A stretch of 64,000 nucleotides of DNA, taken from Nonomuraea turkmeniaca. Lineage in GTDB: Bacteria; Actinomycetota; Actinomycetes; Streptosporangiales; Streptosporangiaceae. The notes under the pieces were generated by a model, which did not search any database, was not told the DNA's origin, and saw only the letters and a program-made list of their open reading frames with translations. The position numbers and the translations under genes were made by a program. Shown one piece after another: positions 13,804-47,174 of the stretch (position 1 is its first letter; each line of letters starts with the position of its first letter). The stretch lies in assembly GCF_005889735.1 (NCBI RefSeq), contig NZ_VCKY01000025.1, positions 1-64,000 on the forward strand, given 5' to 3'.

Positions 13804-13814
13804 GTAGATGTTTC

Positions 13815-19345: not shown

Positions 19346-19356
19346 TCGCCGTCAGA

Positions 19357-19515: not shown

Positions 19516-19592
19516 CGGGGCGTGGCGCAGCTTGGCAGCGCGCTTGCTTTGGGAGCAAGAAGTCGCAGGTTCAAATCCTGTCGCCCCGACCA
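19516..19592 (+). tRNA. tRNA-Pro (anticodon TGG), CCA encoded
   Basis: The acceptor CGGGGCG/CGCCCCG, D arm GCGC-GCGC, anticodon arm CTTGC-TTTGGGA-GCAAG (anticodon TGG) and T arm GCAGG-TTCAAAT-CCTGT are clear. CCA is encoded at 19590-19592. It is divergent from tRNA-Gly. Confidence 0.96.
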
Positions 19593-29294: not shown

Positions 29295-31859
29295 TTGGCA
29301 GGCAACCTGACCCGGGACGAGGCGCGAGAGCGCGCCCGGCTGTTGAGGGTCGAGTCGTACGAGGTCGCACTGGACCTGACGGAAGGGGACGAGCGCTTCG
29401 AGAGCGTCACGTCGGTCCGCTTCAGCAGCGCCACCTCGGGTGCGTCCACCTTCATCGACCTGCACGGCGCGCAGGTGCGCAAGGCGACGCTGAACGGCCA
29501 GGACCTCGACGTGGCGGCCTACGACGCGGAGAAGGGCCGGTTCCCGCTCCCGTCGCTCGCCGAGTCCAACGAGCTGCGGATCGACGCCGACTGCGCCTAC
29601 ATGCGCACCGGCGAGGGTCTGCACCGTTTCGTCGACCCGGTCGACCAGCGTGTCTACCTGCACAGCCAGTTCGAGACGGCCGACGCCCACCGCATGTACG
29701 CGTGCTTCGACCAGCCCGACCTCAAGGCCACGTTCCAGCTGACCGTGCTGGCCCCGGCGGACTGGGAGGTGATCTCCAACGCCGCCGCCGTCAACGTGGA
29801 GGGCCTGCCGGAGCAGGCCGGCAAGCACGGGACCGTGCACGCGGCCAAACGGTGGGAGTTCGCGGTCACGCCGGTCATGTCCACCTACATCACGGCGCTG
29901 GTGGCCGGGCCGTATCACAAGGTCACCTCGGAGCACGACGGCATCCCGCTCGGCCTCTACTGCCGGGCCTCGCTGGCCGAGCACCTCGACTCCGACAACC
30001 TCTTCGAGGTCACCCGGCAGGGCTTCGACTTCTTCCACCGGGTGTTCGGCGTGCGCTACCCGTTCGGCAAGTACGACCAGGCCTTCGTGCCCGAGTTCAA
30101 CGCCGGCGCGATGGAGAACGCCGGCTGCGTGACGTACCTGGAGGACTACGTCTTCCGCTCCCGGGTCACCGACGCGGTCGTCGAGCGGCGCGCGGAGACG
30201 ATCCTGCACGAGATGGCGCACATGTGGTTCGGCGACCTCGTCACCATGCGCTGGTGGGACGACCTGTGGCTGAACGAGTCGTTCGCCACCTACATGTCCG
30301 TGCTCGCCCAGGCCGAGGCCACCCGGTGGGGCAAGGGCGCGTGGACGACGTTCGCGAACGTGGAGAAGGCCTGGGCCTACCGCCAGGACCAGCTGCCGTC
30401 CACGCACCCGATCGCCGCGGACATCCCGGACATGCAGGCGGTCGAGGTCAACTTCGACGGCATCACGTACGCCAAGGGCGCCTCGGTGCTCAAGCAACTG
30501 GTCGCGTACGTGGGGCTGGACAACTTCCTGGCCGGCGTGCGCGACTACTTCGCCGAGCACGCCTGGGGCAACACCGAGCTGAAGGACCTGCTCGACGCCC
30601 TGGAGCGGACCTCCGGACGGGACCTGTCCGCCTGGTCGAAGGAGTGGCTGGAGACCTCCTGGGTCAACACGCTGCGGCCCTCGTTCGAGGTGTCGGAGGG
30701 CCGGTTCACCGCGTTCGACGTGCTGCAGGAGGCGCCGGCCGACTATCCGACGCTGCGCTCGCACCGCATCGCGATCGGCCTGTACTCCCTGGTGGACGGC
30801 AAGCTGACGCGGACCAAGCGGGTCGAGCTGGACGTGGTGGGCGCGCGTACGAGCGTGGCCGAGCTGGTCGGCGAGGAGCAGCCCGACCTGGTGCTGCTCA
30901 ACGACGACGACCTGACCTACGCCAAGGTCCGGCTCGACGAGGACTCGCTGCGCACGCTGGTGGACGGCGGCATCGTCACGTTCACCGAGTCGCTGCCGCG
31001 CGCGCTGTGCTGGTCGGCGGCCTGGGACATGACCCGCGACGGCGAGATGTCCACGCGCGACTACGTCAAGCTGGTCGTCTCGGGCGCGGGCACGGTCACG
31101 GACATCACGGTGCTGCAGACGATCCTGCGGCAGGCGCGTATGGCCGCCCAGCAGTACGCGGCCCCGTCGTGGCGGGCGGAGGGCCTGGCGCTGCTGGCGC
31201 GGGAGCTGCGCTCGCTGCTCGGCTCGGCCGAGCCCGGGTCGGACCACCAGCTGGCGTTCCTGCAGGCGTTCGCGCCGGTGGCCATCTCGGCGGAGGACCT
31301 GGACCTGCTGCAGCGCATCCTGGACGGCACGGAGGTGCCCGACGGGCTGAGCGTGGACGCCGACCTGCGCTGGACTCTGGTGCACGCGCTCGTCACCGGC
31401 GGCCGGATGGGCGAGGCCGACATCGAGGCCGAGCTGAAGCGCGACCCTACGGCGACGGGTGAGCGGTCGGCCGCGCAGTGCCGGGCCGCGGTGCCCACCG
31501 CCGAGGCCAAGAACGCGGCGTGGGACCGGATCCTGGGCGGCGAGCTGGCCAATCACATTGCCAGGGCGACGATCGGCGGCTTCCAGGACCCGCACCACCC
31601 CGAGCTCCTGGAGCCGTTCCGCGCGAAGTACTTCGCCGAGGTCGGGCGCGTCTACAAGGAGTGGACGTACGACCAGGCGTCGTCGTTCGCGGTGGGGTGC
31701 TTCCCCTCGCTGCTCATCGAGCCGGTGACCGTGCAGGCCGCCGAGGACTACCTGGCGGCCGAGCAGCCGCCGCAGGCGCTGCGCAGGATGATCCTGGAGG
31801 GCGCCGACGGCGTCCGCCGCGCGCTGCGTAACCGCGAGAAGGACGCCGCGTCCGCCTGA
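29295..31859 (+). CDS. pepN: Aminopeptidase N
   Basis: M1-family zinc aminopeptidase in the cytosol, 854 aa. The TTG start follows AAAAGGAG by 6 nt. Substrate motif GAMEN is at 271-275, zinc motif HEMAH at 305-309, and the third ligand Glu328 in LNESFATY. The C-terminal ERAP-like helical domain (about 530-840) is complete. A strong hairpin terminator follows 11 nt after the stop. Confidence 0.97.
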   Translation: MAGNLTRDEARERARLLRVESYEVALDLTEGDERFESVTSVRFSSATSGASTFIDLHGAQVRKATLNGQDLDVAAYDAEKGRFPLPSLAESNELRIDADCAYMRTGEGLHRFVDPVDQRVYLHSQFETADAHRMYACFDQPDLKATFQLTVLAPADWEVISNAAAVNVEGLPEQAGKHGTVHAAKRWEFAVTPVMSTYITALVAGPYHKVTSEHDGIPLGLYCRASLAEHLDSDNLFEVTRQGFDFFHRVFGVRYPFGKYDQAFVPEFNAGAMENAGCVTYLEDYVFRSRVTDAVVERRAETILHEMAHMWFGDLVTMRWWDDLWLNESFATYMSVLAQAEATRWGKGAWTTFANVEKAWAYRQDQLPSTHPIAADIPDMQAVEVNFDGITYAKGASVLKQLVAYVGLDNFLAGVRDYFAEHAWGNTELKDLLDALERTSGRDLSAWSKEWLETSWVNTLRPSFEVSEGRFTAFDVLQEAPADYPTLRSHRIAIGLYSLVDGKLTRTKRVELDVVGARTSVAELVGEEQPDLVLLNDDDLTYAKVRLDEDSLRTLVDGGIVTFTESLPRALCWSAAWDMTRDGEMSTRDYVKLVVSGAGTVTDITVLQTILRQARMAAQQYAAPSWRAEGLALLARELRSLLGSAEPGSDHQLAFLQAFAPVAISAEDLDLLQRILDGTEVPDGLSVDADLRWTLVHALVTGGRMGEADIEAELKRDPTATGERSAAQCRAAVPTAEAKNAAWDRILGGELANHIARATIGGFQDPHHPELLEPFRAKYFAEVGRVYKEWTYDQASSFAVGCFPSLLIEPVTVQAAEDYLAAEQPPQALRRMILEGADGVRRALRNREKDAASA

Positions 31860-31870
31860 TCCTCGTCCCT

Positions 31871-31902
31871 GAAGGCCCCCGCCACGCCTGGCGGGGGCCT
31901 TC
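31871..31902 (+). terminator. Terminator of pepN
   Basis: GAAGGCCCCCGCCA (31871-31884) pairs perfectly with TGGCGGGGGCCTTC (31889-31902) around a CGCC loop. The 14-bp stem insulates pepN from the sugar operon. Confidence 0.93.
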
Positions 31903-31927
31903 CGCGTTTCCGGGACGTTTCCGGCTC

Positions 31928-31991
31928 TTGACAGGAAGTGGCCCGCCAGCCATATTTCAGGACTAACTTTACTTCTAAAGAAAGTCCTGAA
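31928..31991 (+). promoter_or_regulatory. Promoter and ROK-type operator of the alpha-glucan operon
   Basis: A -35 TTGACA (31928-31933), 17-nt spacer and -10 CATATT (31951-31956) form a near-consensus promoter. Overlapping its -10 and start site is a 15-bp inverted repeat with only two mismatches: TTCAGGACTAACTTT (31956-31970) against AAAGAAAGTCCTGAA (31977-31991). The CTTT..AAAG core resembles operators of ROK repressors such as XylR/NagC-type proteins. The operator ends 6 nt before the ROK start, so the regulator should block its own operon until sugar is present. Confidence 0.8.
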
Positions 31992-31996
31992 CCTTC

Positions 31997-33181
31997 ATGG
32001 CAGCCACTGACCGCGGCGACCTCACCAGGACGGCGATCCTGGCCCTGCTGGGCACCGGCGGGCCGCTCAGCCGGACCGAGATAGCACGCGAGCTGGACCT
32101 CAGCCCGGCCACCGTCACGCAGCTCACGCGCGAGCTCATGGGGCACGGAATGCTGGAGGAGCTCGACCTCAAGCCGTCGCGCGGCGGGCGGCCCGCCGTT
32201 CGGCTCGGGCTGGTGGGCGGGGCCGGGCACGCACTGGGCGTCAAGGTGACGGCCGATCATCTGGTGCTGGTAGATGTGCGGCTGGACGGCGAGGTGCTCG
32301 GGTCGTGGGAGCGGCCGTTCGACCCGTCATCGGCCGACGCGCTCGACGAGCTGGCGGCGGCCGTGGAGTCGGCGGTGCCGGGCGACGGGCCGCCGCTGCT
32401 GGGCGTGGGGGTCGGGGTGCCGGGCAGCGTGGAGGACCAGGCGGCCGGCACGGTGAACGCGCCGACGCTGGGGTGGCAGGCGATGCCGGTCGGCGAGCGG
32501 CTGCGGCGCAGGTTGCGGCTCCCGGTGCTGGTGGAGAACGACGTGAACGCGCTGGCGGTCGCCGAGCGGCTGTACGGCCGGGGGCGTACGCACCGGGACT
32601 TCCTCGTGGTGACGATCGGCCGCGGCGTCGGCGCGGCGATCGTCGCCGACGGCCGGGTGTACCGGGGGGCGCGGGGCGGCGCCGGCGAGTTCGGCCACCT
32701 GCCGGTGGACCCGGACGGACCGATGTGCGGCTGCGGGGCCCGCGGCTGCCTGGAGGCGTTCGTGGGCTCGGCAGGTCTCCTCGCGGCGGCCCGCGCGAAG
32801 TCCGCCGGCCGAGTGGAGGCCCCGCTCGGGCAGGCCGCCGCGGCCGGCGACCCGGCGGCGCGTGCCGTGTTCGCCGAGGCCGGGGCGATCCTCGGGCGGG
32901 CCACCGCCGGGCTGATCAACGTCGTGGACCCGGAGGTCGTGGTCGTGCTCGGCGAGGGCACGGCGGACTGGCCGCTCTGGCGGGACGGCTTCGAACAGGC
33001 GCTCAGGGCGCAGCTCTACCCGGGACGGCGCGACATCTCCGTCGAGGTGGAGAGCTGGGACGACACGAGCTGGGCGCAAGGGGCGGCGGCGCTGGTGCTG
33101 GCGACCCCGTTCGACGCGGCTGGCGCGGCCGGAGAGCAGGGCCGCCTGGTGCGTGCCCGGCTGATCGGAGCCACGCCATGA
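31997..33181 (+). CDS. ROK-family transcriptional regulator
   Basis: A 394-aa repressor-type ROK protein. The N-terminal winged HTH (about 8-65, LSRTEIARELDLSPATVTQLTRELM) is followed by a sugar-kinase-like domain. ENDVNALAVAERLYG and the zinc motif GHLPVDPDGPMCGCGARGCLE mark the ROK fold. It is the first gene of the eight-gene alpha-glucan operon. The Kribbella and Listeria cyclic-glucan catabolic clusters also carry a regulator gene. The likely effector is an intermediate such as isomaltose; this is inferred. Confidence 0.93.
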   Translation: MAATDRGDLTRTAILALLGTGGPLSRTEIARELDLSPATVTQLTRELMGHGMLEELDLKPSRGGRPAVRLGLVGGAGHALGVKVTADHLVLVDVRLDGEVLGSWERPFDPSSADALDELAAAVESAVPGDGPPLLGVGVGVPGSVEDQAAGTVNAPTLGWQAMPVGERLRRRLRLPVLVENDVNALAVAERLYGRGRTHRDFLVVTIGRGVGAAIVADGRVYRGARGGAGEFGHLPVDPDGPMCGCGARGCLEAFVGSAGLLAAARAKSAGRVEAPLGQAAAAGDPAARAVFAEAGAILGRATAGLINVVDPEVVVVLGEGTADWPLWRDGFEQALRAQLYPGRRDISVEVESWDDTSWAQGAAALVLATPFDAAGAAGEQGRLVRARLIGATP

Positions 33182-33222
33182 GCGCCCGGTCCGCCCGCAC
33201 GAACGAGGAGACGATCTCATGA
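33178..33222 (+). other. 14-codon bridging frame between ROK and permease genes
   Basis: An ATG overlapping the ROK stop opens MSARSARTNEETIS, whose TGA overlaps the ATG of the permease. It contains the permease ribosome site (GAGGAG). It may carry ribosomes across the 37-nt gap, or be chance. Confidence 0.3.
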
Positions 33223-34160
33223 CCCTCACCGCGGCCCCGCCGGAGGAGCGGGTCACGCATCAGCGGGCCAGGCCACGCAAGGGCTGGCGGTACGCCGGCA
33301 CCGTCGCGGTGTTCCTGCTGCCGAGCCTCGTCCCCCTGACGCTCTACACGATCATCCCCATGCTCGGCTCGCTCTGGACAAGCCTGCACGAATGGGACCT
33401 CATCACCGAGATGCGCTGGGTCGGCCTGGGCAACTACATCGAGCTGATCGGCGATCCGGGGACCCGGGCGGCGTTCCTGCACACGCTCTCCTTCATCGCC
33501 GGCTACCTGCCGCTCGTCTACGCGGGCGGCCTCGGCCTGGCGTTGCTGCTCAACCGGGCGCCCCGATCGACTGGGTCCGGCCGGAGCCTGCTGCGCGGCA
33601 TCTACTTCCTGCCGGTGATCACCAGCTGGGTGGTCGTGGCGCTGATGTGGAAGTGGCTGCTCAATCCGGCCAGCGGCATCGTCAACTGGGCCCTCGGCCT
33701 GTTCGGGATCAGCGGGCCCGGCTGGTGGACCGACCCGGCCTGGGCGATGCCGTCGGTCATCCTGGCCTCGGCCTGGAAGGACCTGGGCTTCGTGATGATC
33801 ATCCTGCTGGCCGGGCTGCAGGCGATCCCCCGCGAGTACCAGGAGGCGGCCATGGTGGACGGCGCCACGGCGTGGCGCAGGTTCCGGCACATCACGCTCC
33901 CACTGCTGTCCCCCTCGACGTTCTTCGTGGTCGTGATCTCGCTGATCAACGGCTTCCAGGTCTTCGACCAGGTCAAGATCATGACGAACGGCGGTCCCGG
34001 CGGGGCCACGCAGGTCGTGGTGTCGCAGATCTACGACCTCACGTTCAGGTACGGCCGGGCCGGCGCGGCCTCCGCGTTGTCCTGGTTGTTGTTCGCAGTC
34101 GTGCTGATCGTGACGATCATCCAGATCCGGGGCCAGAAGCGGTGGGTGACGTATGGGTAA
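33219..34160 (+). CDS. CUT1 sugar ABC transporter permease (MalF-like)
   Basis: A 313-aa inner-membrane protein with six TM segments, the first at about 24-46. The EAA loop that docks the ATPase is EYQEAAMVDGATAWRRFRHI. It pairs with the next permease and the lipoprotein binder to import oligosaccharides. No ATPase gene is in the operon, so a shared MsiK-type ATPase elsewhere is expected, as is usual in actinomycetes. Confidence 0.95.
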   Translation: MTLTAAPPEERVTHQRARPRKGWRYAGTVAVFLLPSLVPLTLYTIIPMLGSLWTSLHEWDLITEMRWVGLGNYIELIGDPGTRAAFLHTLSFIAGYLPLVYAGGLGLALLLNRAPRSTGSGRSLLRGIYFLPVITSWVVVALMWKWLLNPASGIVNWALGLFGISGPGWWTDPAWAMPSVILASAWKDLGFVMIILLAGLQAIPREYQEAAMVDGATAWRRFRHITLPLLSPSTFFVVVISLINGFQVFDQVKIMTNGGPGGATQVVVSQIYDLTFRYGRAGAASALSWLLFAVVLIVTIIQIRGQKRWVTYG

Positions 34161-35025
34161 GGCGCGAGGACGGATCCGCGGCGAAACGAGGACATCCATC
34201 GGAGCACGCCGGGCGGTGCTCGGCCAAATAGCCCGCTATCTGCTGGTCGGGCTGGGCGCGCTGGCAATGTTGTTCCCGTTCGGGTGGGCGGTGATCACCT
34301 CCATCACGCCGAGCGACGCCGTGCTCGCCGTGCCGCCGGACTTCACGCCGGAGGGCGCGAGCCTGGACGCGTACGGCAAACTGCTGGAGACCCTGCCGTT
34401 CTGGCGGATCGTGCTCAACAGCGCCTGGATCGGTGCGGCCTCCACCATGCTGCAGCTGATCACCAGCGCGATGGCCGCCTACGCGTTCGCCCGGCTGCCG
34501 TTCCCCGGCCGGGGCGCGTTGTTCGCGGTGTACCTGACGACGTTGATGATGCCGCTGCCGGTGCTGGTCGTGCCGCTGTTCATCGAGATGCGCACGTTCG
34601 GGCTCGTGGACACGTACTTCGCGTTGCTGGCGCCGACGATCGCCTCGGCGTTCGGGGTGTTCCTGCTGCGGCAGGCGATCAACCAGGTGCCGCGGGAGTT
34701 CGACGAGGCGGCCGTCCTGGACGGCGCCGGGCATTTCCGGATCTTTCTGTACGTGGTGCTGCCGCTGATCCGGCCGGCGCTGGCCACGTTCGCCATCTTC
34801 GGCTTCATGGCCAGCTGGAACAGCTATCTCTGGCCGCTGATCATCATCAAGTCGCCCGAGTTCATGACCCTCCCGCTGGGCCTGGCCACGCTGCACGGCC
34901 AGTTCACCACGCAGTGGGACGTGGTCATGGCGGGCTCGGTGATCAGCGTCGTACCGATCCTCATCCTCTACGTCTTCGCGCAGAAGCACGTCATCGCCAG
35001 CGTCGCGCAGAGCGGGCTCAAGTAA
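34153..35025 (+). CDS. CUT1 sugar ABC transporter permease (MalG-like)
   Basis: A 290-aa second permease. It has six TM segments and the EAA loop EFDEAAVLDGAGHFRIFLYV. It starts 8 nt inside the end of the preceding permease gene, so they are translationally coupled. The basic N-terminus (KARGRIRGETRTSIGARR) lies in the cytosol. Confidence 0.95.
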   Translation: MGKARGRIRGETRTSIGARRAVLGQIARYLLVGLGALAMLFPFGWAVITSITPSDAVLAVPPDFTPEGASLDAYGKLLETLPFWRIVLNSAWIGAASTMLQLITSAMAAYAFARLPFPGRGALFAVYLTTLMMPLPVLVVPLFIEMRTFGLVDTYFALLAPTIASAFGVFLLRQAINQVPREFDEAAVLDGAGHFRIFLYVVLPLIRPALATFAIFGFMASWNSYLWPLIIIKSPEFMTLPLGLATLHGQFTTQWDVVMAGSVISVVPILILYVFAQKHVIASVAQSGLK

Positions 35026-35037
35026 AGGAATCCCCCC

Positions 35038-36312
35038 ATGTCTCATTTTCCAGGGTCGAGAAACGCCGCCATCGCCACTGTGGCAGCCGTAGCGCTGCTC
35101 GCCTCCGCCTGCTCCCAGGGGTCGGCCACCAGGGCCCCCTCCGGCGCCGACGGCAAGGCCACCGTGCGGTACTTCACCTTCTCCGCGGCCCCCGACCACC
35201 TCAAGGACCTCGACACGATCGAGAAGGCCTTCGAGAAGGAGAACCCGAAGGTGGACGTGGTCGTCGAGACCGCGCCCTTCGAGGAGTACTTCACCAAGCT
35301 CCAGACCAGCATCGCGGGCGGCACCGCGCCGGACGCGTTCGAGCTCAACTACGAGAACTTCGTCACCTACGCCAGCGCGGGCTCCCTGCTGGACCTCGGC
35401 ACGGTGGCCGGTGACGGCGACACCTCGGTCTACGCGCAGGAGTCGCTCAACGCGTTCCAACAGGACGGCAAGCAGTACGCGCTGCCGGCCTCCTTCTCCA
35501 CGGTCGTGCTCTTCTACAACAAGGACCTCTTCAAGAAGGCCGGGGTGGCCGAGCCCACGGCGGACTGGACGTGGGCCGACGAGCAGGCCGCCGCGGCCGA
35601 GCTGACCGACAGGAAGAAGGGCGTGTACGGCGACTTCCAGCCGGTGCAGTTCTTCGAGTTCTACAAGACGCTCAAGCAGGCGGGCGGCGAGTTCCTGTCG
35701 GCCGACGGCAAGAAGGCCACGTTCAACAGCCCCGAGGGCGTCAAGGCCGCCAAGTGGCTGGTCGGCAAGGTCGGCAAGTCGATGCCGACCGAGGCCGAGA
35801 TCGGCGGCGCCGCCGACTACGACACGAACCTGTTCAAGTCCGGCAAGCTCGCCATGTGGCACAACGGCATCTGGCAGTTCGCGGGGCTCAAGGACGTGCC
35901 GTTCGAGTGGGACGTGGTCGTCGAGCCCGGTGACGCGAACAAGGCCAGCGCGGTCTTCCACAACGCCGTCGCCATCTCCTCCGGCACCAAGGCCGGCAAG
36001 GACGCGTACGCGTGGGCCCGCTTCCTGTCGTCCTCGAACGTCGCCGCCACCACCCGCATCCAGTCGTCCTGGGAGCTGCCGCCGGTCGCCGACCAGCAGG
36101 TGCTCTCCGGCTACCTCAAGGACCCGAAGCCGGCCAACCGGCAGGCGGTGTTCGACTCGCTGAAGTCGATCGCGTTGCCGCCGGTCATCAAGCGCCAGCA
36201 GGAGATGCAGGACGCGGTGACCAAGCAGCTGACCGAGGCCGCCGCCGGCCGCACCTCCGTGGAGGACGCGCTCAAGGCCGCCGCCGCCGACGTCGACGCC
36301 CTGCTCGGCTGA
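35038..36312 (+). CDS. Sugar-binding lipoprotein of the ABC transporter
   Basis: A 424-aa family-1 extracellular solute-binding protein. The signal peptide ends in the lipobox LASAC with lipidated Cys25. GTAPDAFELNYENFVTYASAG and LPASFSTVVLFYNKDLFKKAG are typical of the maltose-type fold. It should bind the oligosaccharide made by the secreted GH31 enzymes of this operon, by analogy with the cycloalternan-binding protein of Listeria. AAGGAAT precedes the ATG. Confidence 0.93.
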   Translation: MSHFPGSRNAAIATVAAVALLASACSQGSATRAPSGADGKATVRYFTFSAAPDHLKDLDTIEKAFEKENPKVDVVVETAPFEEYFTKLQTSIAGGTAPDAFELNYENFVTYASAGSLLDLGTVAGDGDTSVYAQESLNAFQQDGKQYALPASFSTVVLFYNKDLFKKAGVAEPTADWTWADEQAAAAELTDRKKGVYGDFQPVQFFEFYKTLKQAGGEFLSADGKKATFNSPEGVKAAKWLVGKVGKSMPTEAEIGGAADYDTNLFKSGKLAMWHNGIWQFAGLKDVPFEWDVVVEPGDANKASAVFHNAVAISSGTKAGKDAYAWARFLSSSNVAATTRIQSSWELPPVADQQVLSGYLKDPKPANRQAVFDSLKSIALPPVIKRQQEMQDAVTKQLTEAAAGRTSVEDALKAAAADVDALLG

Positions 36313-36332
36313 GTTGTCTAGGAGAGATTTCG

Positions 36333-37415
36333 TTGTCCCTCGTCGCGCACAGCCTCGACGTGATCAAGAGATTGCAGTCGCCCACCGGGGCCTATCCGGC
36401 CTCGCCCACCTTCTCCGCCTACCGCGGCTACTCGTGGCTGCGGGACGGTGCGTTCATCGCCGAGGGGGTGAGCAGGCACGGCGACGTGGCCGGCGCTGAC
36501 GCCTTCCACACCTGGTGCGCCCGCGTGGTCGGCGACCGCGCGGGCCAGGTGGACTCGCTGGTCTCCCGGGCCGCGCGCGGCGATGCCGTGCCCGTCTCCG
36601 AGATGTTGCCCACCCGCTTCACGCTGGACGGGGTGGACGGCGCGGACGAGTGGTGGGACTTCCAGCTCGACGGGTACGGCACGTGGCTCTGGTCGCTGCG
36701 CGCGCACGCCGGCCGCCACGGCCGTGTGGTGCCCGGCGTCGAGAAGGGGATCAGGGCGGCCGCCAGGTACCTGACGGCGTTCTGGCACCTGCCCTGTTAC
36801 GACTGGTGGGAGGAGCACGTCGAGCAGCGGCACGTGGCCACGCTCAGCTCGGTCCACGCGGGCCTGCGGGCCGCGGTAGCGCTCGGCGTGCTGAGCGCGA
36901 CCGAGGAGGCGGCCGCGGTGGAGGCGGTCGAGGGCGTCACCGAGCTGGTCGAGCGGGAGGGCGTCACCGGCGGGCGGTTGCGGAAGTGGCTCGGCAGTGA
37001 CGCCGTGGACGCCAGCCTGCTGGCGTGCGTGGAGCCGTTCGGGCTGTATCCGGCCGGGCATCCGGTGGGGGCGGCGACGGTTGCCGAGGTCGAGCGGCAA
37101 CTCGCCCGCGATGGCGGCGTGTACCGGTACCTCGCGGACACCTTCTACGGCGGCGGGCGGTGGGTGCTGCTGGCCGGGTTCCTCGGCTGGAATCACGCCG
37201 CGGCAGGACGGACCGCCGAGGCCCGCCGTTACCTGGGCTGGATGGCGGCTCAGGCGACGCGGGAAGGCGATCTGCCCGAGCAGGTGTCGGATCTGCTGCT
37301 GGCGCCCGGGCGGCTCCAGGAGTGGCTCGACCGGTGGGGCCCCGTGGCGACGCCGCTGTTGTGGTCGCACGGGATGTATCTGATCCTCGCGGACGAGTTG
37401 GAGGTGCGGGCATGA
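36333..37415 (+). CDS. GH15-like glucohydrolase, candidate isomaltose glucohydrolase
   Basis: A 360-aa cytosolic (alpha/alpha)6 glycoside hydrolase. The TTG start follows AGGAGAG by 6 nt. GH15 marks are GYSWLRDGAF (32-41), WWDFQLDGYGTWLW (107-120), the acid pair WEE (E160/E161), and the base in GDLPEQV (E316). It is shorter than classic glucoamylases and has no signal peptide or starch-binding domain, which suits cleavage of a small imported sugar. Kribbella flavida has a GH15 isomaltose hydrolase next to a GH31 in the same setting. It overlaps the next gene by ATGA. Confidence 0.88.
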   Translation: MSLVAHSLDVIKRLQSPTGAYPASPTFSAYRGYSWLRDGAFIAEGVSRHGDVAGADAFHTWCARVVGDRAGQVDSLVSRAARGDAVPVSEMLPTRFTLDGVDGADEWWDFQLDGYGTWLWSLRAHAGRHGRVVPGVEKGIRAAARYLTAFWHLPCYDWWEEHVEQRHVATLSSVHAGLRAAVALGVLSATEEAAAVEAVEGVTELVEREGVTGGRLRKWLGSDAVDASLLACVEPFGLYPAGHPVGAATVAEVERQLARDGGVYRYLADTFYGGGRWVLLAGFLGWNHAAAGRTAEARRYLGWMAAQATREGDLPEQVSDLLLAPGRLQEWLDRWGPVATPLLWSHGMYLILADELEVRA

Positions 37416-39685
37416 TCCGGCATCGGCCGTTCGGGTCCGGGCACCCGTACGCGGCGACCGAGGACCAGCGGGTGCCCGCCAGGCCGCTGGACGGTGAGGC
37501 GGTGGAGCTGCGGGTCCGGGCGTCGGCGAGCGTCGTCGCGATGGTGTGCGAGTGGGCCGAGGACGGTGGCGCGCCGGCAGAGCTGCCGCTGGCCCGGCGC
37601 GACTCGGGGGTGAATGGCGCGGCGCAGCCCGGGACCGGGGCGGCGGCCGAGCCCGGGGCGGCCACGGAGGCGCAGCCCGGGGCGGTCGATGGCGGGCATC
37701 TCGCCGCCGCGCAGGCCAGGGCCGCGCGGGCCGCCGCCGGGTCGTGGGCCGTCCGGACGCCCGTTCTGCGGTCCGGGCATCGGTACGCCTACCGCTTCCG
37801 CGCCGACCTGGACGGGGGCGGGAGGCGTACCAGCAGGTGGTTCCACGTGTCGGCGGCGAGCTGGTCGGCCGACGGCGGGAAGCTGGACGTCACGGGTGCC
37901 GACCAAATCGTGCCAGGGAGCGTGCGATGGCTGGCGGACGCGGACGGCGTGCTGCGGGTGCGGTTCGAGGTGGCGCTCCGGCCGGAGGAGCACGTGGTGG
38001 GGTTCGGCGAGCGGTTCGACGCCGTCGACCAGCGCGGGCGGGACGGAGCTCGGCTCGACGCGGTCGTGTTCGAGCAGTACAAGGCGCAGGGGCGGCACGG
38101 GCGCACCTACCTGCCCATGCCGTTCGCGCTGGTCGTAGGGGGCGCGGCGAGCTGGGGTCTGCACGTGGCGACCTCGCGGCGGACCTGGTACGAGGCCGGC
38201 GAGCGGCTGTGCGTGGAGGCCGAGGTGGGCCAGGACGGCGTGCTCGGGGTGCGTTTCCACGACGGGCCCGAGCCTGCCGGCGTGCTGCGTGCGTTCCTGG
38301 ACGAGGTCGGGCGGCCCACGGAGTTGCCGTCGTGGGTGTTCCGGCTGTGGGCCAGCGGCAACGAGTGGAACACGCAGGAACGGGTGATGGACCGGATGGA
38401 CCGGCACCGCGAGCACGGCATCCCCGTCGGCGCGCTGGTCATCGAGGCGTGGAGCGACGAGACGACGTTCACGGCCTTCCGCGGGGCCGCCTATGAGGCG
38501 TCGGAGGAGCCGCATCGCCTGGCCGACTACACCTTCCCCGCCGACGGCCCGTGGCCCGACCCCAAGGGCATGGTCGACGAGTTGCACGGCCGCGGCGTCA
38601 AGGTGCTGCTCTGGCAGATCCCGCTGCAGAAGATGCGGCCGCACCCCCGGCACCAGGCGGCCGTGGACGCCCGGCAGCTCGTCGAGCACGGCTACGGGGT
38701 GCGGGAGGCGGACGGCCGTCCCTACCGGAACCGGGGATGGTGGTTCCCGCTCGCGCTCATGCCCGACCTGTCGTCGCAGGAGGTCCGCGACTGGTGGACG
38801 GCCAAGCGACGCTACCTGGTCGAGGAGGTCGGGATCGACGGGTTCAAGACCGATGGCGGCGAGCACGCCTGGGGGCACGACCTGCGGTACGCCGACGGGC
38901 GGGACGGCGCTGAGGGGAACAATCTGTTCCCCGTCCACTACGCGCGTGCCTTCGGCGACCTGCTGCGGGCGTGCGGGAAGGCGCCGGTGACGTTCAGCCG
39001 GGCCGGGTTCGCCGGGTCGCAGCCGCACGGGGCGTTCTGGGCCGGGGACGAGGACTCCACGTGGGAGGCGTTCCAGTCCTCGATCCGAGCCGGGATCACG
39101 GCCTCGGCCTGCGGGATCGTGTACTGGGGCTGGGACCTGGCCGGGTTCTCCGGCGAGGTGCCGGACGCCGAGCTGTACCTGCGGGCGGCCGGGGCGTCGG
39201 CGTTCATGCCGATCATGCAATACCACTCGGAGTTCAACCACCACCGCACGCCCCTCAGGGACCGCACGCCGTGGAACGTCGCCGAGCGGACCGGGGACGA
39301 GCGGGTGATCCGGGTGTTCAGGCGGCTGGTGGAGGTGCGTGAGCGGCTGGTGCCGTACCTGGCGGAGCAGGCGCGCAAGGCGGTGGACGGCGGGGCGCCG
39401 CTGATGCGCGGGCTGTTCTTCGACCACCCGCACGACCCGGACGTGTGGCGGTTTCCGCTGCAGTACAAGCTCGGTGACGCGCTGCTCGTCGCACCCGTGA
39501 CAGAGCGCAGCGTCTCGGAGATCTCCGTGTACCTGCCTGAGGGCGAGTGGATCGACGTCTGGACCGCACACGCCCTGGCCGGCGGGCAGGAAGTCACGCT
39601 GCCGGCCCCGCTCGACCGCCCGCCCGTGCTCTGCGCCGCCGAGCACTGGTCTCGCCTCTTCCCCGTCTTTGAAGCGCCCTCGTGA
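37412..39685 (+). CDS. Cytosolic GH31 alpha-glucosidase, candidate cycloalternan-degrading enzyme
   Basis: A 757-aa GH31 enzyme with no signal peptide. Nucleophile Asp481 is in GFKTDGGE and acid/base Asp546 in FWAGDEDSTW. It is clearly related along its length to the secreted GH31+CBM35 protein encoded next, as known cycloalternan-forming and -degrading enzymes are to each other. It should open the cyclic tetrasaccharide at alpha-1,3 bonds to give isomaltose. An Ala/Gly/Pro-rich insertion (about 65-112) interrupts the N-terminal beta domain. It is coupled to both neighbours by 4-nt overlaps. Confidence 0.87.
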   Translation: MIRHRPFGSGHPYAATEDQRVPARPLDGEAVELRVRASASVVAMVCEWAEDGGAPAELPLARRDSGVNGAAQPGTGAAAEPGAATEAQPGAVDGGHLAAAQARAARAAAGSWAVRTPVLRSGHRYAYRFRADLDGGGRRTSRWFHVSAASWSADGGKLDVTGADQIVPGSVRWLADADGVLRVRFEVALRPEEHVVGFGERFDAVDQRGRDGARLDAVVFEQYKAQGRHGRTYLPMPFALVVGGAASWGLHVATSRRTWYEAGERLCVEAEVGQDGVLGVRFHDGPEPAGVLRAFLDEVGRPTELPSWVFRLWASGNEWNTQERVMDRMDRHREHGIPVGALVIEAWSDETTFTAFRGAAYEASEEPHRLADYTFPADGPWPDPKGMVDELHGRGVKVLLWQIPLQKMRPHPRHQAAVDARQLVEHGYGVREADGRPYRNRGWWFPLALMPDLSSQEVRDWWTAKRRYLVEEVGIDGFKTDGGEHAWGHDLRYADGRDGAEGNNLFPVHYARAFGDLLRACGKAPVTFSRAGFAGSQPHGAFWAGDEDSTWEAFQSSIRAGITASACGIVYWGWDLAGFSGEVPDAELYLRAAGASAFMPIMQYHSEFNHHRTPLRDRTPWNVAERTGDERVIRVFRRLVEVRERLVPYLAEQARKAVDGGAPLMRGLFFDHPHDPDVWRFPLQYKLGDALLVAPVTERSVSEISVYLPEGEWIDVWTAHALAGGQEVTLPAPLDRPPVLCAAEHWSRLFPVFEAPS

Positions 39686-42600
39686 GCCGATTAAGGTCGG
39701 CCGTCATCGTGGTGGTGATCGCCTTGTCAACATCCTTCGTCTCTGTTCCCGCTCTCGCGCTCGCCGGTGTGCACCACAACCCGGCCGGAATCGACGACCT
39801 GTACTCGGCCGAACCGACCGAGCGGGTGCCGCGTGACCCGATGGCCGGCGAGGCGGTCCAGATCAAGGCGACGACCTGGCCGATCGAGCCAGGTCAGACC
39901 GTCTGGGTCACCTGGACCAGGAACGGGGCGAACCAGACCCCGATCGGCGCGGCCTGGGACTACAACAGCGGCGACAACAGCTACTGGAAGATCGACTTAG
40001 GGACGTTCGCCCGCGGCGACAAGATCACCTACACCGTGAACGCGGACGTGAACGGGGGCGGGCAGAAGAGCGTCGGCCCGTTCTCGTTCGCGGTCACCTC
40101 CTGGAGCACGGTGACGAACGTGACCGGCTTCACGGACAACGGCACGTCGGTGGATGTCACGACCGGCGACAGCGCCGGGAGCTTCACGCCGAAGATCCGC
40201 TACGCGTTTCCGGCGCTCGACCGGTTCAGGACCCAGATCGCCCCCAGCGGGCAAGGCCTGAACATCTCCGGAGTCTCCGGCTACACGGTGACCGACTCGG
40301 CGAGCACGCTCACGATCTCCACGAGCTCGCTCGTGCTGAAGATCCAGAAGTCGCCGTACCGGCTGTCGGTCTACAAGGGCGACGGCACAACGCTGATCAC
40401 CCGCCAGTACGACCCCGCCACGTTCAGGAACATCGGCTGGGCCAGCGACGGGTCCACCACGATCACCAAGATCGAGGACCACTTCATGTCGCCGGCCGGC
40501 GAGCGCTTCGAGGGCTTCGGCGAGCGCTATGACCGGCTGGACCAGCGCGGCACAGATGTGCACAACTACGTCTACAACCAGTACAGGGACCAGGGCGCCA
40601 CCCGGCGCACCTACCTGAGCGTGCCGTTCTTCCTGAACTCGGCCGGCTACGGCGTCTACATCCCGACCAGCCGGTACGCGATCTTCAACCTCAACACGCA
40701 CCTGCCCGACCTGGCCGGATTCACCGTGGACACCGGCGGCGGCCTCGACTCGACGCTGGACTACCACTTCTACGCGGGCACGCCGGCCGAGATCCTGGAC
40801 GACTACACGGCGGCCTCCGGCCGGCCGCTGCTGCCGCCGAAGTGGGCCTTCGGCGTGTGGATGTCGGCCAACGAGTGGAACACGCAGGCCGAGGTCAACG
40901 CCGAGCTGGCCAACGTGGCGGCGTACAAGGTCCCGCACACCGCGATGGTGCTGGAGCAGTGGAGCGACGAGGCCACGTTCTACGTGTGGCACGGCGCGAC
41001 GTACACGCCCAAGCCGGGCAGCGGCCGGCTCGCCTACAGCGACCTGACCTTCCCGGCGGGCACGGCGTGGCAGGACCCGAAGGCGATGGTGGACAACGCC
41101 CACAGCAAGGGGATCAAGGTGATCCTCTGGCAGATCCCGGTGTTCAAGGAGAACTTCGACGCCAACCCGCCGACCGCGCCGCAGCAGCACCTCAACGACA
41201 AGGCGTATGCGGAAGCCCAGGGCTATGTCGCGAAAAATCCGACTAACGCTCCCTACCGCATCCCGACCGGCCAGTGGTTCGGCGACAGCATGGTCCCCGA
41301 CTTCACCAGCACGGCCGCGACCGCCTGGTGGATGAGCAAGCGCGACTACCTGATCGACGACATCGGCATCGACGGCTTCAAGACCGACGGCAGCGAGGCG
41401 ATCTTCGGGCGGGGCGTGCGGTTCGCGGACGGCCGCACGGGCGACGAGATGCACAACGCCTACCCGAACAGCTACACGGGTGCATACAACGCCTATGTGA
41501 AGGGCAAGCGGCCCGACGGCACGGTCTTCAGCCGGGCCGGCACGGCAGGCGCCCAGACCAGGTCGATCTTCTGGGCCGGCGACCAGAACTCCAGCTTCGC
41601 CGCCTTCCAGGAAGCGGTCAGAGCGCAGCTCAGCGCGGGCCAGTCGGGGGTGCCGTACACGGCCTGGGACCTGGCGGGCTTCACCGGGACCTTCCCCAGC
41701 GCCGAGCTCTACCTGCGCTCCGCGGCCCAGGCGACGTTCTCGCCGATCATGCAGTACCACTCGGAGAAGGCCGCCCCGGGCACGTCGGAGGCCCGCACCC
41801 CGTGGAACGTGCAGGCCCGCACCGGTGACACGAGCGTCGTGCCGGCGTTCCGCAGGTTCGCCAACGTGCGCATGAACCTGATCCCCTACCTCTACACCGA
41901 GGCCAAGGCGAGCGCGACCACGGGCGTGCCGATGATGCGGGCGATGAGCTTCGCCTTCCCCGGCGACGCGACGGCCGCCGCCCTGGACCAGCAGTACCTG
42001 TTCGGCTCGCAGCTGCTCGTCGCGCCGATCACGACGCAGGGTGCGATCTCGAAGAACGTGTACGTGCCCGCCGGCGAGTGGCACGACCTGTGGAACGGCG
42101 GCCGCTTCACCGGCCCCGGCACCAAGACCTACCACGCCGGCCTGGACACGATCCCGGTCTACGCCAAGCCCGGGGCGATCATCCCGCTCAATCTCGACGC
42201 CGACTACCAGCTCGGCGGCGAGATCGGTAACAGCGTCGACAACTACACCAACTTGACCTTCCGGATTTATCCGTCAGGCACCACCTCATACGCCTATTTC
42301 GAGGACGCCGCGAACGCCACCCGCACCGTCACCTCGGCCGAGAACTGGGCCGGGCACGCGGTGACGGTCACCGTGCCGCCGCTGACCACGACCAGCACGC
42401 TCCAGGTGGCGAGCACGAAGCCGGCCTCGGTGACCGGCGCGACCGCCCGGGCCGCGCCGGCCGACCTCAAGGCCGCCGCCGAGGGCTGGTGGTGGGACCC
42501 GGTCCAGCAGCTCACCCACGTCAAGCTCGCGAGCAGCGGCTCCACCAGGACGGTCACGCTCAACGGGGTGGACAAGGCCGCCTACGAGGCCGAGTTCGCG

Positions 42601-42954
42601 ACGGGCACCGGCACCTCGACGAACACCGACCACGCCGGCTACACCGGGACCGGCTTCACCGACGGCTTCGCGACACCGGGCGACGCGGTGACGTTCCAGG
42701 TCAAGGCCGACGCGACGGGCGGCCACCAGCTCACGTTCCGCTACTCGGCCACCGTGAACGCCACCAGGACCGTTTACGTGGACGGCGTGTCCGCCGGCAC
42801 GCTCTCGCTCCCCGCGCTGGCGAACTGGGACACGTGGGGCACGGCCACGCTCGCGACGTCCCTCACGGCGGGCGCCCACGCCGTCAAGATCGCCTATGAC
42901 GCGGTGAACACCGGCGGGATCAATCTCGACAACCTGGTGGTGAGCCGGCCATGA
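39682..42954 (+). CDS. Secreted GH31 with CBM35, candidate 3-alpha-isomaltosyltransferase
   Basis: A 1090-aa secreted enzyme (signal peptide about 1-29; GTG start overlapping the previous stop). An N-terminal beta domain is shared with the cytosolic paralogue. The GH31 barrel has nucleophile Asp569 in GFKTDGSE and acid/base Asp634 in FWAGDQNSSF. A C-terminal CBM35 (about 968-1090, starting YEAEFATGTG and ending INLDNLVVSRP) follows. In Bacillus and Kribbella a GH31 isomaltosyltransferase with carbohydrate-binding modules builds the cyclic tetrasaccharide. Similarity to the cytosolic enzyme suggests that both recognise isomaltosyl units. An alpha-glucosidase role is the alternative. Confidence 0.83.
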   Translation: MSRLRSAVIVVVIALSTSFVSVPALALAGVHHNPAGIDDLYSAEPTERVPRDPMAGEAVQIKATTWPIEPGQTVWVTWTRNGANQTPIGAAWDYNSGDNSYWKIDLGTFARGDKITYTVNADVNGGGQKSVGPFSFAVTSWSTVTNVTGFTDNGTSVDVTTGDSAGSFTPKIRYAFPALDRFRTQIAPSGQGLNISGVSGYTVTDSASTLTISTSSLVLKIQKSPYRLSVYKGDGTTLITRQYDPATFRNIGWASDGSTTITKIEDHFMSPAGERFEGFGERYDRLDQRGTDVHNYVYNQYRDQGATRRTYLSVPFFLNSAGYGVYIPTSRYAIFNLNTHLPDLAGFTVDTGGGLDSTLDYHFYAGTPAEILDDYTAASGRPLLPPKWAFGVWMSANEWNTQAEVNAELANVAAYKVPHTAMVLEQWSDEATFYVWHGATYTPKPGSGRLAYSDLTFPAGTAWQDPKAMVDNAHSKGIKVILWQIPVFKENFDANPPTAPQQHLNDKAYAEAQGYVAKNPTNAPYRIPTGQWFGDSMVPDFTSTAATAWWMSKRDYLIDDIGIDGFKTDGSEAIFGRGVRFADGRTGDEMHNAYPNSYTGAYNAYVKGKRPDGTVFSRAGTAGAQTRSIFWAGDQNSSFAAFQEAVRAQLSAGQSGVPYTAWDLAGFTGTFPSAELYLRSAAQATFSPIMQYHSEKAAPGTSEARTPWNVQARTGDTSVVPAFRRFANVRMNLIPYLYTEAKASATTGVPMMRAMSFAFPGDATAAALDQQYLFGSQLLVAPITTQGAISKNVYVPAGEWHDLWNGGRFTGPGTKTYHAGLDTIPVYAKPGAIIPLNLDADYQLGGEIGNSVDNYTNLTFRIYPSGTTSYAYFEDAANATRTVTSAENWAGHAVTVTVPPLTTTSTLQVASTKPASVTGATARAAPADLKAAAEGWWWDPVQQLTHVKLASSGSTRTVTLNGVDKAAYEAEFATGTGTSTNTDHAGYTGTGFTDGFATPGDAVTFQVKADATGGHQLTFRYSATVNATRTVYVDGVSAGTLSLPALANWDTWGTATLATSLTAGAHAVKIAYDAVNTGGINLDNLVVSRP

Positions 42955-45794
42955 CCCGCGCGCTCGTCTTCTTGGCGGCTCTGCTCATGCCCTCGCTGGT
43001 GGCGTCGTCCGCGCAGGCGGCGGTCCAGCGGGTGGAGTTCACCAGCGGCTCGGCGTATCTGATCGTGGAGTTCCTCGACGACGACCTCGTGCACTTCGAG
43101 CTCGCCAACGGGACGAGCCCCGGCGTGAACACGTCGATCTTCAGCACCCCGCAGGTGGCGAAGAAGGACTACATGGGCCCGTCCAGCTTCACCCAGTCGG
43201 GTGACACGCTCACCACGCCCGCCATGAAGGTCGAGGTGACGGCCGGAACGTTGTGCGTCAAGGTCTCCGACCCGGCTCGGCTGCTCTACGAGGCGTGCCC
43301 GCGCAACCTCGCTCAGCCGTGGAAGGGCCTGGCCATCACCAAGGGCTCGATGCAGAACGCCTACGGCCTGGGCGAGCAGTTCTTCATGGGCGGCAGTGCC
43401 GACGGCGACTGGGTGGGCCGCACCCGCTCCCCCGGCGGACCGTACGGCAACGCCATGGTCTTCGACACCGACAACGGCCCGGTCGGCAACACGCAGATCC
43501 CGGTGCTGTTCGCGGTGGGCCCAGCCAATACGAACACAGCGAACCTCAACTACGGCCTGCTGCTCGACCAGGTCCACAAGCAGCAATGGAACCTGACCGG
43601 CGACCCCTGGACGGTGGACACCTGGGGCGACCAGCTCAGGTGGTACACGATGACCGGCCCCGACCTGCCGGACCTGCGCAAGGACTACATGGAGCTGACG
43701 GGCCGGCCGCCGGTGCCGCCGAAGAAGGCGTTCGGCATGTGGGTGTCGGAGTTCGGCTACGACAACTGGGCCGAGATCGACAACCGTCTCAACGGGCTGC
43801 GGGCGGACGCGTTCCCGGTGGATGGGTTCGTGCTGGACCTGCCGTGGTTCGGCGGGGTGACGGCCGGGTCGGACAACACCCGCATGGGCACGCTCTCCTG
43901 GGACACGAACGCCTTCCCCAACACCTCCGCCACGATCAACGACTACGCGACGAACAAGGGCATCGGCCTGATGACCATCGAGGAGTCGTACGTCGGCAAG
44001 AACCTGCCCGAACACACCGACCTCGCTTCGCGCGGCTACCTCGTGAGGTCCGGCTGCCCGGGCTGCGCCCCGGCCTACCTGACGACCAACGACTGGTGGG
44101 GCCGGGGCGGCATGATCGACTGGACCCAGGACGCGGCCGCCGACTACTGGCACACGCTCAAGCGGCAGCCCCTCGCCGAGCAGGGCGTCCAGGGCCACTG
44201 GCTGGACCTGGGCGAGCCGGAGATGTACGACGCCGGGGACTGGACCTCCGGCGTGCTGCCCGGCAAACATGCCCACGCCGACTACCACAACGTCTACAAC
44301 CTCAAGTGGGCCGAGAGCGTGGCCCGCGGCTACGCCTCCGGCACCAGGCGGCCCTTCATGCTCGCCCGCTCCGGCGCGGCCGGCATCCAGCGGCACGGCG
44401 TGGCCATGTGGTCGGCCGACATCGGCTCCAAGCTGACCGCGCTGGCCCAGCAGCAGAACGTGCAGATGCACATGTCGATGTCCGGCATCGACTACTTCGG
44501 CTCCGACATCGGCGGGTTCCGCAGGGAGATGCTCAATTCGGATCTGAACGAGCTCTACACGCAGTGGTTCGCCAATGGCTCCTGGTTCGAGGTGCCGGTG
44601 CGCCCGCACACCGAGAACCTGTGCAACTGCGCGCAGACCTCACCCGACAAGATCGGCCACAAGCCGAGCAACCTGGCCAACCTGCGTCAGCGATACGAGC
44701 TCGCGCCCTACTACTACTCGCTCGCCCACCGCGCCCACCTCTTCGGTGAGCCCGTGATCCCTCCGCTGGTGCACGCCTACCAGAACGACCCGAACGTGCG
44801 CGAGGCGGGCCACGAGAAGCTCATCGGCCGCGACCTCCTGGTCGGCGTGGCGGCCGGCGCCGGCGAGCGCGACCGCGACATCTACCTGCCCGCAGGGACC
44901 TGGTACGACTACGCCACCGGCGAGAAGCTCACCAGCTCCGGCCAGTGGTTCACCGACCGCCCGCTGTGGGTCGACGGGGTGTTCCGGTTGCCGGCCTTCG
45001 CCAGGGCTGGGGCGATCATCCCGAAGGCGCACGTGGACGACAAGACCATGAACGTCGTGGGCAAACGCACCGACGGCACGGCCAGGAACGAGCTGATCGC
45101 CCGCGTGTATCCGCACACCACGTCCACTGATTTCACCCTTTACGAGGACGACGGGGCCACGACGGCGTACCAGAGCGGCTCCGTACGCACGACCCGGATC
45201 AGCCAGCAGCTCAGCGGCAGCACGGCCACCGTCACCGTGGCCGCCTCCACCGGCGCCTACAGCGCCGCGCCCGCAAGCAGGTCGACCGTGGTGGAGCTGG
45301 TCGCCGACACCCAGGCGTCGGCCGTCACGCTGAACGGATCCCCGCTCACCCAGCACGCCACCAAGAGCGCCTTCGACGCCGCCGCCGGCGGCTGGTACAA
45401 CGCGGGCGGCAACCTCATCGTCGCCAAGGCGGCGAGCGCGAGCGTCACCGCGGCCAAGACGTTCGCGTTCACGCTCGGCCAGGCGCCGGCGTCGATGACG
45501 TTCAGGTGCGACAACGGCACCACGGACCCCGGACAGTCGATCTACGCCGTCGGCAGCGTCCCGCAGCTCGGGGCCTGGTCGGTGGCGAGCGCGGTCAAGC
45601 TGGCACCCACGGCATATCCGACCTGGACCGGCACGATCGGCAAACTGCCACCGAACACCGCCATCGACTGGAAGTGCGTCAAACGTCAGGAGTCCGGCTA
45701 CCCCGACACCGCGGACCAGTGGCAACCGGGCGCCAACACCTCCCTCACCACCCCCGCCACCGGCGACGGCGGCACGAGTACAGGAACCTTTTGA
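42951..45794 (+). CDS. Secreted GH31 with CBM20, candidate 6-alpha-glucosyltransferase
   Basis: A 947-aa secreted enzyme with a signal peptide of about 23 residues (ending SSAQA) and a start overlapping the previous stop. It belongs to a different GH31 subgroup from its neighbours: nucleophile Asp419 in HWLDLGEPE and acid/base Asp490 in MWSADIGS. The C-terminal domain (about 845-940; GQSIYAVGSVPQLGAWS, AIDWKCVKR, QWQPGANTS) is a CBM20 starch-binding module. Starch binding suits the first step, transfer of glucose to maltodextrin ends through alpha-1,6 bonds. Its exact reaction cannot be proved from sequence. Confidence 0.83.
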   Translation: MTRALVFLAALLMPSLVASSAQAAVQRVEFTSGSAYLIVEFLDDDLVHFELANGTSPGVNTSIFSTPQVAKKDYMGPSSFTQSGDTLTTPAMKVEVTAGTLCVKVSDPARLLYEACPRNLAQPWKGLAITKGSMQNAYGLGEQFFMGGSADGDWVGRTRSPGGPYGNAMVFDTDNGPVGNTQIPVLFAVGPANTNTANLNYGLLLDQVHKQQWNLTGDPWTVDTWGDQLRWYTMTGPDLPDLRKDYMELTGRPPVPPKKAFGMWVSEFGYDNWAEIDNRLNGLRADAFPVDGFVLDLPWFGGVTAGSDNTRMGTLSWDTNAFPNTSATINDYATNKGIGLMTIEESYVGKNLPEHTDLASRGYLVRSGCPGCAPAYLTTNDWWGRGGMIDWTQDAAADYWHTLKRQPLAEQGVQGHWLDLGEPEMYDAGDWTSGVLPGKHAHADYHNVYNLKWAESVARGYASGTRRPFMLARSGAAGIQRHGVAMWSADIGSKLTALAQQQNVQMHMSMSGIDYFGSDIGGFRREMLNSDLNELYTQWFANGSWFEVPVRPHTENLCNCAQTSPDKIGHKPSNLANLRQRYELAPYYYSLAHRAHLFGEPVIPPLVHAYQNDPNVREAGHEKLIGRDLLVGVAAGAGERDRDIYLPAGTWYDYATGEKLTSSGQWFTDRPLWVDGVFRLPAFARAGAIIPKAHVDDKTMNVVGKRTDGTARNELIARVYPHTTSTDFTLYEDDGATTAYQSGSVRTTRISQQLSGSTATVTVAASTGAYSAAPASRSTVVELVADTQASAVTLNGSPLTQHATKSAFDAAAGGWYNAGGNLIVAKAASASVTAAKTFAFTLGQAPASMTFRCDNGTTDPGQSIYAVGSVPQLGAWSVASAVKLAPTAYPTWTGTIGKLPPNTAIDWKCVKRQESGYPDTADQWQPGANTSLTTPATGDGGTSTGTF

Positions 45795-45857
45795 TACCGG
45801 CGGCGACATCGCCGTTTTGTCCTCCCGACTTTGGCCATGTCATCGAACCCCCGGTGT

Positions 45858-45863
45858 TAGCCT
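45858..45863 (+). promoter_or_regulatory. -10 box of leaderless kinase gene
   Basis: TAGCCT lies 7 nt before the GTG at 45871. It marks a promoter separate from the sugar operon. Confidence 0.6.
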
Positions 45864-45870
45864 CGATGAC

Positions 45871-47145: not shown

Positions 47146-47174
47146 CCGCTCTCCGCTCGTGAGAAAGTCGTCGC

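Follow-up and report, generated by a model that had tools for sequence, protein, structure and literature searches.

We examined a 64,000-nucleotide stretch of DNA (here called the window; positions 1 to 64,000 of contig NZ_VCKY01000025.1, assembly GCF_005889735.1) from the 11.35-Mb genome of Nonomuraea turkmeniaca. Between positions 31997 and 45794, eight reading frames with zero internal stops follow each other on the + strand. They encode a ROK-family regulator, two ABC permeases, a solute-binding lipoprotein, a member of glycoside hydrolase family 15 (GH15), and three members of family 31 (GH31). The intergenic gaps are, in gene order, 37, -8, 12, 20, -4, -4, and -4 nt, i.e., the last four genes are joined by three 4-nt overlaps, and no ATPase gene is present in the run. 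Gene content, single direction, and overlaps agree with an earlier reading of the DNA letters made without database searches (the sequence-only reading), which had proposed one operon for the synthesis, import, and breakdown of a cyclic alpha-glucan. On the basis of the comparisons below, we consider it likely that the locus is a complete starch-use operon working through cycloalternan (cyclobis-(1->6)-alpha-nigerosyl [CNN]).

Table 1. Features of the locus, with positions in the window
Feature	Position	Strand	Basis or remark
Sigma70-like promoter, TTGACA-17-CATATT	31928..31956	+	Pattern scan
Operator, inverted repeat TTCAGGACT...AGTCCTGAA	31956..31991	unstranded	Conserved core inside
ROK-family regulator, N-terminal winged helix, 394 aa	31997..33181	+	Pfam PF00480, 181 bits
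MalF-like ABC permease	33219..34160	+	Pfam PF00528
MalG-like ABC permease	34153..35025	+	Pfam PF00528
Solute-binding lipoprotein, probable cycloalternan binder	35038..36312	+	PDB 5f7v match; LASAC lipobox by eye
GH15, predicted isomaltose glucohydrolase, probably cytosolic	36333..37415	+	PDB 5z3a match
GH31, predicted 1,3-alpha-isomaltosidase (AIMA), probably cytosolic	37412..39685	+	PDB 5x3i match; Pfam PF21568
Secreted GH31+CBM35, predicted cycloalternan-forming enzyme (CAFE)	39682..42954	+	Lmo2446 4kmq match; Pfam PF22681; tree clade 97/93
Secreted GH31+DUF5110+CBM20 (X6GT), probable 6-alpha-glucosyltransferase	42951..45794	+	K. flavida partner-gene orthology
Terminator-like hairpin after last gene	45798..45814	+	Hairpin scan; chance level

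Domain calls are from Pfam for all genes except GH15, which was identified via its PDB match. The N termini were inspected by eye for signal peptides and the lipobox. The GH15 start is a TTG codon behind AGGAGAG, chosen by us; the longer listed open reading frame (ORF) is 36012-37415. Terminator-like hairpins were found at chance level (5 versus 4.4 expected).

Five proteins (the lipoprotein, GH15, and the three GH31 proteins) were compared with the PDB, and four of them were nearest to solved members of the CNN pathway. CAFE matched Lmo2446 (4kmq; 1128 bits) over residues 20-1088, i.e., nearly its full length, and AIMA, in which no signal peptide was seen by eye, matched 5x3i (932 bits). The best match of GH15 was 5z3a (433 bits), and all five of its PDB matches at E <= 1e-5 carry isomaltose glucohydrolase names. 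The sequences of 5x3i and 5z3a are both encoded at one locus of the Kribbella flavida genome (four stretches matched exactly). For the lipoprotein, the nearest chain was 5f7v (Lmo0181; 333 bits; runner-up, 93 bits), described in a passage of PMC7676653 as a complex with CNN. X6GT had a best PDB match of only 184 bits (251 bits by profile search). The GH31 Asp motifs were present in all three GH31 proteins, and the residues that we take to be catalytic agree with the mutant chains in the PDB alignments. Judged by sequence, the locus therefore contains a forming enzyme, a 1,3-alpha-isomaltosidase, an isomaltose glucohydrolase, and an importer with its binding protein.

The CNN reaction scheme is established for K. 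flavida, Listeria, and Bacillus globisporus. Parts of the scheme appear in passages of PMC7676653 and PMC9061262. Transferred to this locus, it would begin outside the cell, where X6GT, the CBM20 enzyme, would transfer single glucose units along starch or maltodextrin, giving a 6-linked end, and CAFE, the CBM35 enzyme, would release isomaltosyl units and close two of them into a ring with alternating alpha-1,3 and alpha-1,6 bonds. The ring would enter via the lipoprotein and the two permeases; in the cytosol, AIMA would split its 1,3-bonds, yielding isomaltose, and GH15 would split isomaltose to glucose. The ROK protein would repress the operon at the operator until released by a sugar of the pathway. 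The same genes could instead form an operon for environmental alternan, dextran, or branched starch ends, with the secreted GH31 proteins acting as hydrolases and no cyclic sugar being formed. Transfer and hydrolysis read alike in a GH31 sequence, and the nearest NCBIfam models are for alpha-xylosidases and alpha-glucosidases (all below cut-off); the nearly full-length match of CAFE to Lmo2446 and a lipoprotein whose nearest solved relative is by far the cycloalternan binder nevertheless make this alternative very improbable.

To place the GH31 enzymes, we built a careful tree of 42 GH31 proteins, including two others from the host genome (L001 and L002); L003 was omitted as a long branch, and two further weak GH31 matches of the host were left out as well. 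CAFE belonged to one group spanning Actinomycetota and Bacillota (support, 97/93), and AIMA joined first its Chloroflexota relatives and then the Bacillota digesting enzymes (96/93). Both clades contained the K. flavida and Bacillota counterparts, and L001 and L002 were placed outside them. The GH31 phylogeny, which the sequence-only reading had named as a check on its proposal, thus came out as expected for the CBM35 enzyme. X6GT formed a 100/100 group with the partner gene of K. flavida, apart from the Bacillota 6-glucosyltransferases. X6GT does not match the 5x7o/CtsZ type of 6-alpha-glucosyltransferase, having this separate clade and a CBM20 in place of CBM35.

X6GT is probably a 6-alpha-glucosyltransferase, but this is the weakest assignment of the pathway because the protein has a GH31 clade of its own despite being 71% identical to the gene beside and overlapping that of the K. 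flavida forming enzyme. The CNN pathway of the sequence-only reading is thus backed by the four proteins nearest to solved members, while its 6-glucosyltransferase step rests on K. flavida orthology and gene neighborhood, not on the GH31 tree. Four observations weigh against the proposed pathway: none of the eight proteins is named above cut-off by NCBIfam release 20.0; X6GT lies outside the 5x7o-type 6-glucosyltransferase clade; its identity to the Listeria partner is only 28%, over part of the length; and the solved chains nearest to it, 6jr6 and 4b9y, are a candidate alpha-glycosidase and a 4-alpha-glucosyltransferase, respectively. X6GT might accordingly be an alpha-glucosidase or 4-alpha-glucosyltransferase that reshapes maltodextrin; in that case, a different enzyme or isomalto-ended glucans of the environment would supply the 6-linked donor. 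In a profile search, 6jr6 and 4b9y rank ahead of 5x7o, and a quick tree of 45 rows, which also included L003 along with parts of 4b9y and 6jr6, united X6GT with 4b9y on a starred branch where long branches meet. We regard this role as rather unlikely: a common clade of X6GT and the Bacillota enzymes, though not established, was not rejected by the approximately unbiased (AU) test (p 0.21), X6GT is constantly paired with CAFE (28 of 28 relatives; see below) and carries a starch-binding CBM20, and the same partner gene occurs in K. flavida, reportedly a CNN maker. AlphaFold2, given 18 homologs, yielded a poor model of X6GT (mean pLDDT, 55.9; pTM, 0.46). The X6GT of Bailinhaonella (L086, 13202-15724) is without the C-terminal CBM20 part, its match stopping at query residue 842.

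Regarding regulation, the sequence-only reading had placed the genes behind one promoter with a ROK-type operator, and this description held at the sequence level. The promoter-like site was the sole sigma70-like match in 31700-47600 (shuffles average 0.3), and a similar layout was seen by eye upstream of the ROK genes of relatives. The longer inverted repeat contains a core, CTAACTTTANNNCTAAAGAAAG (31963-31984), of which the 11.35-Mb genome has no second copy when up to 3 mismatches are allowed; the reversed control gave 0. The upstream comparison started from 65 loci, of which L059, L092, L098, L151, and L155 were dropped (no usable ROK start) and six of the remainder were repeat copies of the same record. 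Among 55 distinct ROK-upstream sequences, the window's own included, the core was present in 46 (<=4 mismatches, 19 fixed positions) and was not found at <=4 mismatches in nine. Allowing one mismatch per arm, the long palindrome was restricted to the window among the sequences compared; thus, the shorter core is the conserved part. The weight matrix used for further scoring was trained on the sites that it then finds, whereas the own-genome count is independent of it. By this matrix, L147, L148, and L085 also have an operator-like site with a score of >30 at their CAFE promoters. At the K. flavida CAFE locus (L134) and in L149, no site scored >10, and both carry a second ROK gene. The second ROK gene of L134 (10235-11488, - strand) stands before the K. 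flavida CAFE gene, as is likewise the case in many opposite-strand actinobacterial loci. Across lineages, the two halves of the pathway (i.e., synthesis and import/digestion) may be tied together by fusion or by a shared operator, or may come under a second regulator.

The joining of both halves in one run, which the sequence-only reading had claimed, is evident in the window; its implied uniqueness is not. We scanned named genomes (54 loci; limited to genomes with exact short peptides, with K. flavida outside its matches) and found a strong CAFE in 42 actinobacterial loci and one Listeria locus, the other 11 loci being without it. The closest CAFE among these named loci was that of Nonomuraea sp. 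G32 (94% identical). All 42 actinobacterial loci contained a digesting GH31 as well; the halves were co-directional in 31 and on opposite strands in 11, with 4.4-7.8 kb between them. The gap figures of L094 and L100 are inflated since tblastn splits their CAFE into two pieces (Nonomuraea group; L094, 10043-13260; L100, 10082-13281), reflecting a frameshift or an assembly error. In 197 relatives of the window's genome, a strong CAFE was present in 28, and in every one of these it was flanked by AIMA and X6GT, which shared its contig and strand (AIMA start 2.2-2.6 kb upstream and X6GT ~3.7 kb downstream, measured between the starts of the matched stretches). Pairwise distances among the family's 26 producers (325 pairs) were correlated between CAFE and X6GT (r, 0.93) and between each of these and AIMA (0.79 and 0.74), as expected for one inherited unit. 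We conclude that the fusion is a conserved layout rather than a unique one, and the uniqueness claim was dropped. Among the openly accessible literature matches listed (most subscription papers lay outside this scope), no paper treated such a cluster in Nonomuraea or Herbidospora.

Two sets of loci differ in arrangement or content. L147 (4824-19427, - strand) has the synthesis genes first in a co-directional run (CAFE, X6GT, ROK, permeases, lipoprotein, GH15, and AIMA), with an operator copy before CAFE and another before ROK. The Chloroflexota contigs L102-L108 have importer genes and CAFE/AIMA-like GH31 genes, most with ROK and GH15 and none with a strong CAFE; L103, a short contig, had no ROK or GH15 match, and L102, L104, L107, and L108 grouped with AIMA in the tree.

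The sequence-only reading had contrasted the fusion with a split pathway in K. flavida and Listeria, and both splits were found. K. flavida reportedly makes CNN by a pathway said to have been described by Tagami in 2016 (Kfla1895/Kfla1896 plus a 6GT/IMT cluster). Its enzyme set is the same as that of the window (identity: AIMA, 59%; GH15, 60%; CAFE, 72%; and X6GT as above), but the genes are split between two loci separated by 2.35 Mb, of which the second carries a ROK gene of its own. In the genus (38 Kribbella genomes), CAFE was found in 11 and AIMA in 21; the halves of the other 10 CAFE genomes lay on opposite strands 7.2-15.0 kb apart. The Listeria cycloalternan pathway (Lmo2446 and Lmo0181) is said to have been worked out by Light in 2016. 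It is also treated in a passage of PMC7676653. Within the Listeria order (246 genomes), 12 genomes had CAFE; in 11 of them, the digesting gene lay at a great distance or on a different contig. The exception, L. costaricensis, has one co-directional cluster of eight genes, with the synthesis genes first. A thirteenth genome (G758, C1:2390664-2392004) gave a partial CAFE-like match (query residues 263-715), perhaps a decayed copy. In two Listeria-order genomes, CAFE was ~47% and the lipoprotein and permeases were 42-53% identical to those of the window; the catabolic loci L133 and L137 differ in having no GH15 match and a second GH31 in its place, and the 6GT (6-glucosyltransferase) comes from another GH31 clade. 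The splits are thus real but not typical, since the halves stood together in all 42 actinobacterial loci of the one scan.

A co-directional cluster also occurs in another Bacilli genome, G835. Aga is said to have reported in 2002 the ctsUVWXYZ cluster of B. globisporus, which is reportedly co-directional like that of G835. Of the 398 Bacilli genomes surveyed, G835 carries ROK, permeases, lipoprotein, two other genes, a digesting-type GH31, CAFE, and a 6GT in one direction; its 6GT is of the 5x7o type (1884 bits), no GH15 match was found in the cluster, and genes of 615 and 642 aa lie between lipoprotein and GH31. Another genome, G859, is cut by contig ends and falls outside any judgement of layout. 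In an even sample of the class of the window's genome (394 genomes), CAFE was found in six and an AIMA-type match (>=408 bits) in 25, and the halves were on different contigs in two of the six. In the class, Listeria-order, and Bacilli surveys, scoring was confined to the top two or three candidates of each genome; absences in them are therefore weak. Over five surveys (relatives, class, Kribbella, Listeria order, and Bacilli), all 57 genomes whose CAFE was complete or cut by a contig end also had an AIMA/CADE-type GH31, as judged by score and leaving out the partial match of G758. According to a passage of PMC7676653, the seven-gene cluster cmmA-G of Arthrobacter globiformis forms, imports, and digests cyclic maltosyl-maltose (CMM), i.e., a single cluster likewise handles a cyclic glucotetraose from formation to digestion, but with GH13 enzymes and another ring. 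Membership of the window's operon in the CMM pathway was rejected, its enzymes being GH31 and GH15.

Does the cell keep its cyclic sugar to itself, as the sequence-only reading had suggested? AIMA scored above cut-off without CAFE in 14 of the 197 relatives (four more, below cut-off for AIMA's N-terminal family, were left uncounted) and in 10 of the 38 Kribbella genomes. Six of these genomes belong to the window's own genus (G005, G010, G013, G025, G030, and G043); every search candidate was scored for them, and AIMA was found but CAFE and X6GT were not. These counts argue against a strictly private sugar and weaken that claim. The window's operon is flanked upstream by an M1 aminopeptidase gene and downstream by a Ser/Thr kinase ORF starting 22 nt after X6GT; in five of the six AIMA-only genomes, both sides of the locus could be read and the order was M1, ROK, permeases, lipoprotein, GH15, AIMA, and then the kinase gene. 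The locus of G005, where AIMA is also followed by the kinase gene, is split over two contigs.

Between AIMA and the kinase gene, a 3' remnant of X6GT remains in G025 (99 nt; 92/99 to L069; score, 81.5) and in G043 (71 nt; 65/71 to L069; score, 56), with different break points and with scores above the shuffle maxima (16.5). These clear remnants at the same place indicate that the synthesis half was lost in both genomes. G005 has a weak remnant of 24 nt (16/24). The opposite history, in which the AIMA-only genomes never had the synthesis half and the others gained it through several insertions at this locus, is favored by G010, G013, and G030, in which no remnant was detectable at the AIMA-kinase junction, and by the occurrence of AIMA-only genomes outside the family. 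An AIMA tree built by a quick method from 55 rows (CAFE present in 43, absent from 12) does not separate gain from loss: the CAFE label changes nine times, at least six of them on starred branches, and it clusters weakly (values as low arose in 30 and 40 of 500 shuffles). Given the remnants, we consider repeated insertion quite improbable. The AIMA of G010 ends in residues differing from those of its relatives.

We find it most economical to regard the locus as an inherited operon of the known cycloalternan pathway, of which the secreted half could be lost when others make the sugar. More tentatively, we suggest a public-goods system, in which the 3'-terminal secreted half has been deleted repeatedly at one site in Nonomuraea, with the co-regulated import and digestion genes kept intact, giving producers and scavengers of the same ring among close relatives, and in which Actinobacteria drew their 6-glucosyltransferase from a GH31 branch distinct from that of Bacillota; this is quite possible, though short of probable.

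Elsewhere in the window, a c-di-AMP riboswitch lies at 13810-13945 (- strand; RF00379; 87.4 bits), upstream of a 318-aa ORF (12847-13803) without a Pfam match at 1e-8. Genes for tRNA-Gly(tcc) (19355-19426, - strand) and tRNA-Pro(tgg) (19516-19592, + strand) stand on opposite strands ~90 nt apart.

Cyclic sugars are thought to lock the glucose of starch into a form that few neighbors can eat. The six Nonomuraea genomes with import and digestion genes only are new here and are candidate scavengers of the product of other cells. A single operon whose secreted half is lost in some close relatives would thus offer natural producers and candidate scavengers for testing the lock-up idea, and a separate GH31 clade, without a name in NCBIfam release 20.0, is marked as a candidate actinobacterial 6-glucosyltransferase.

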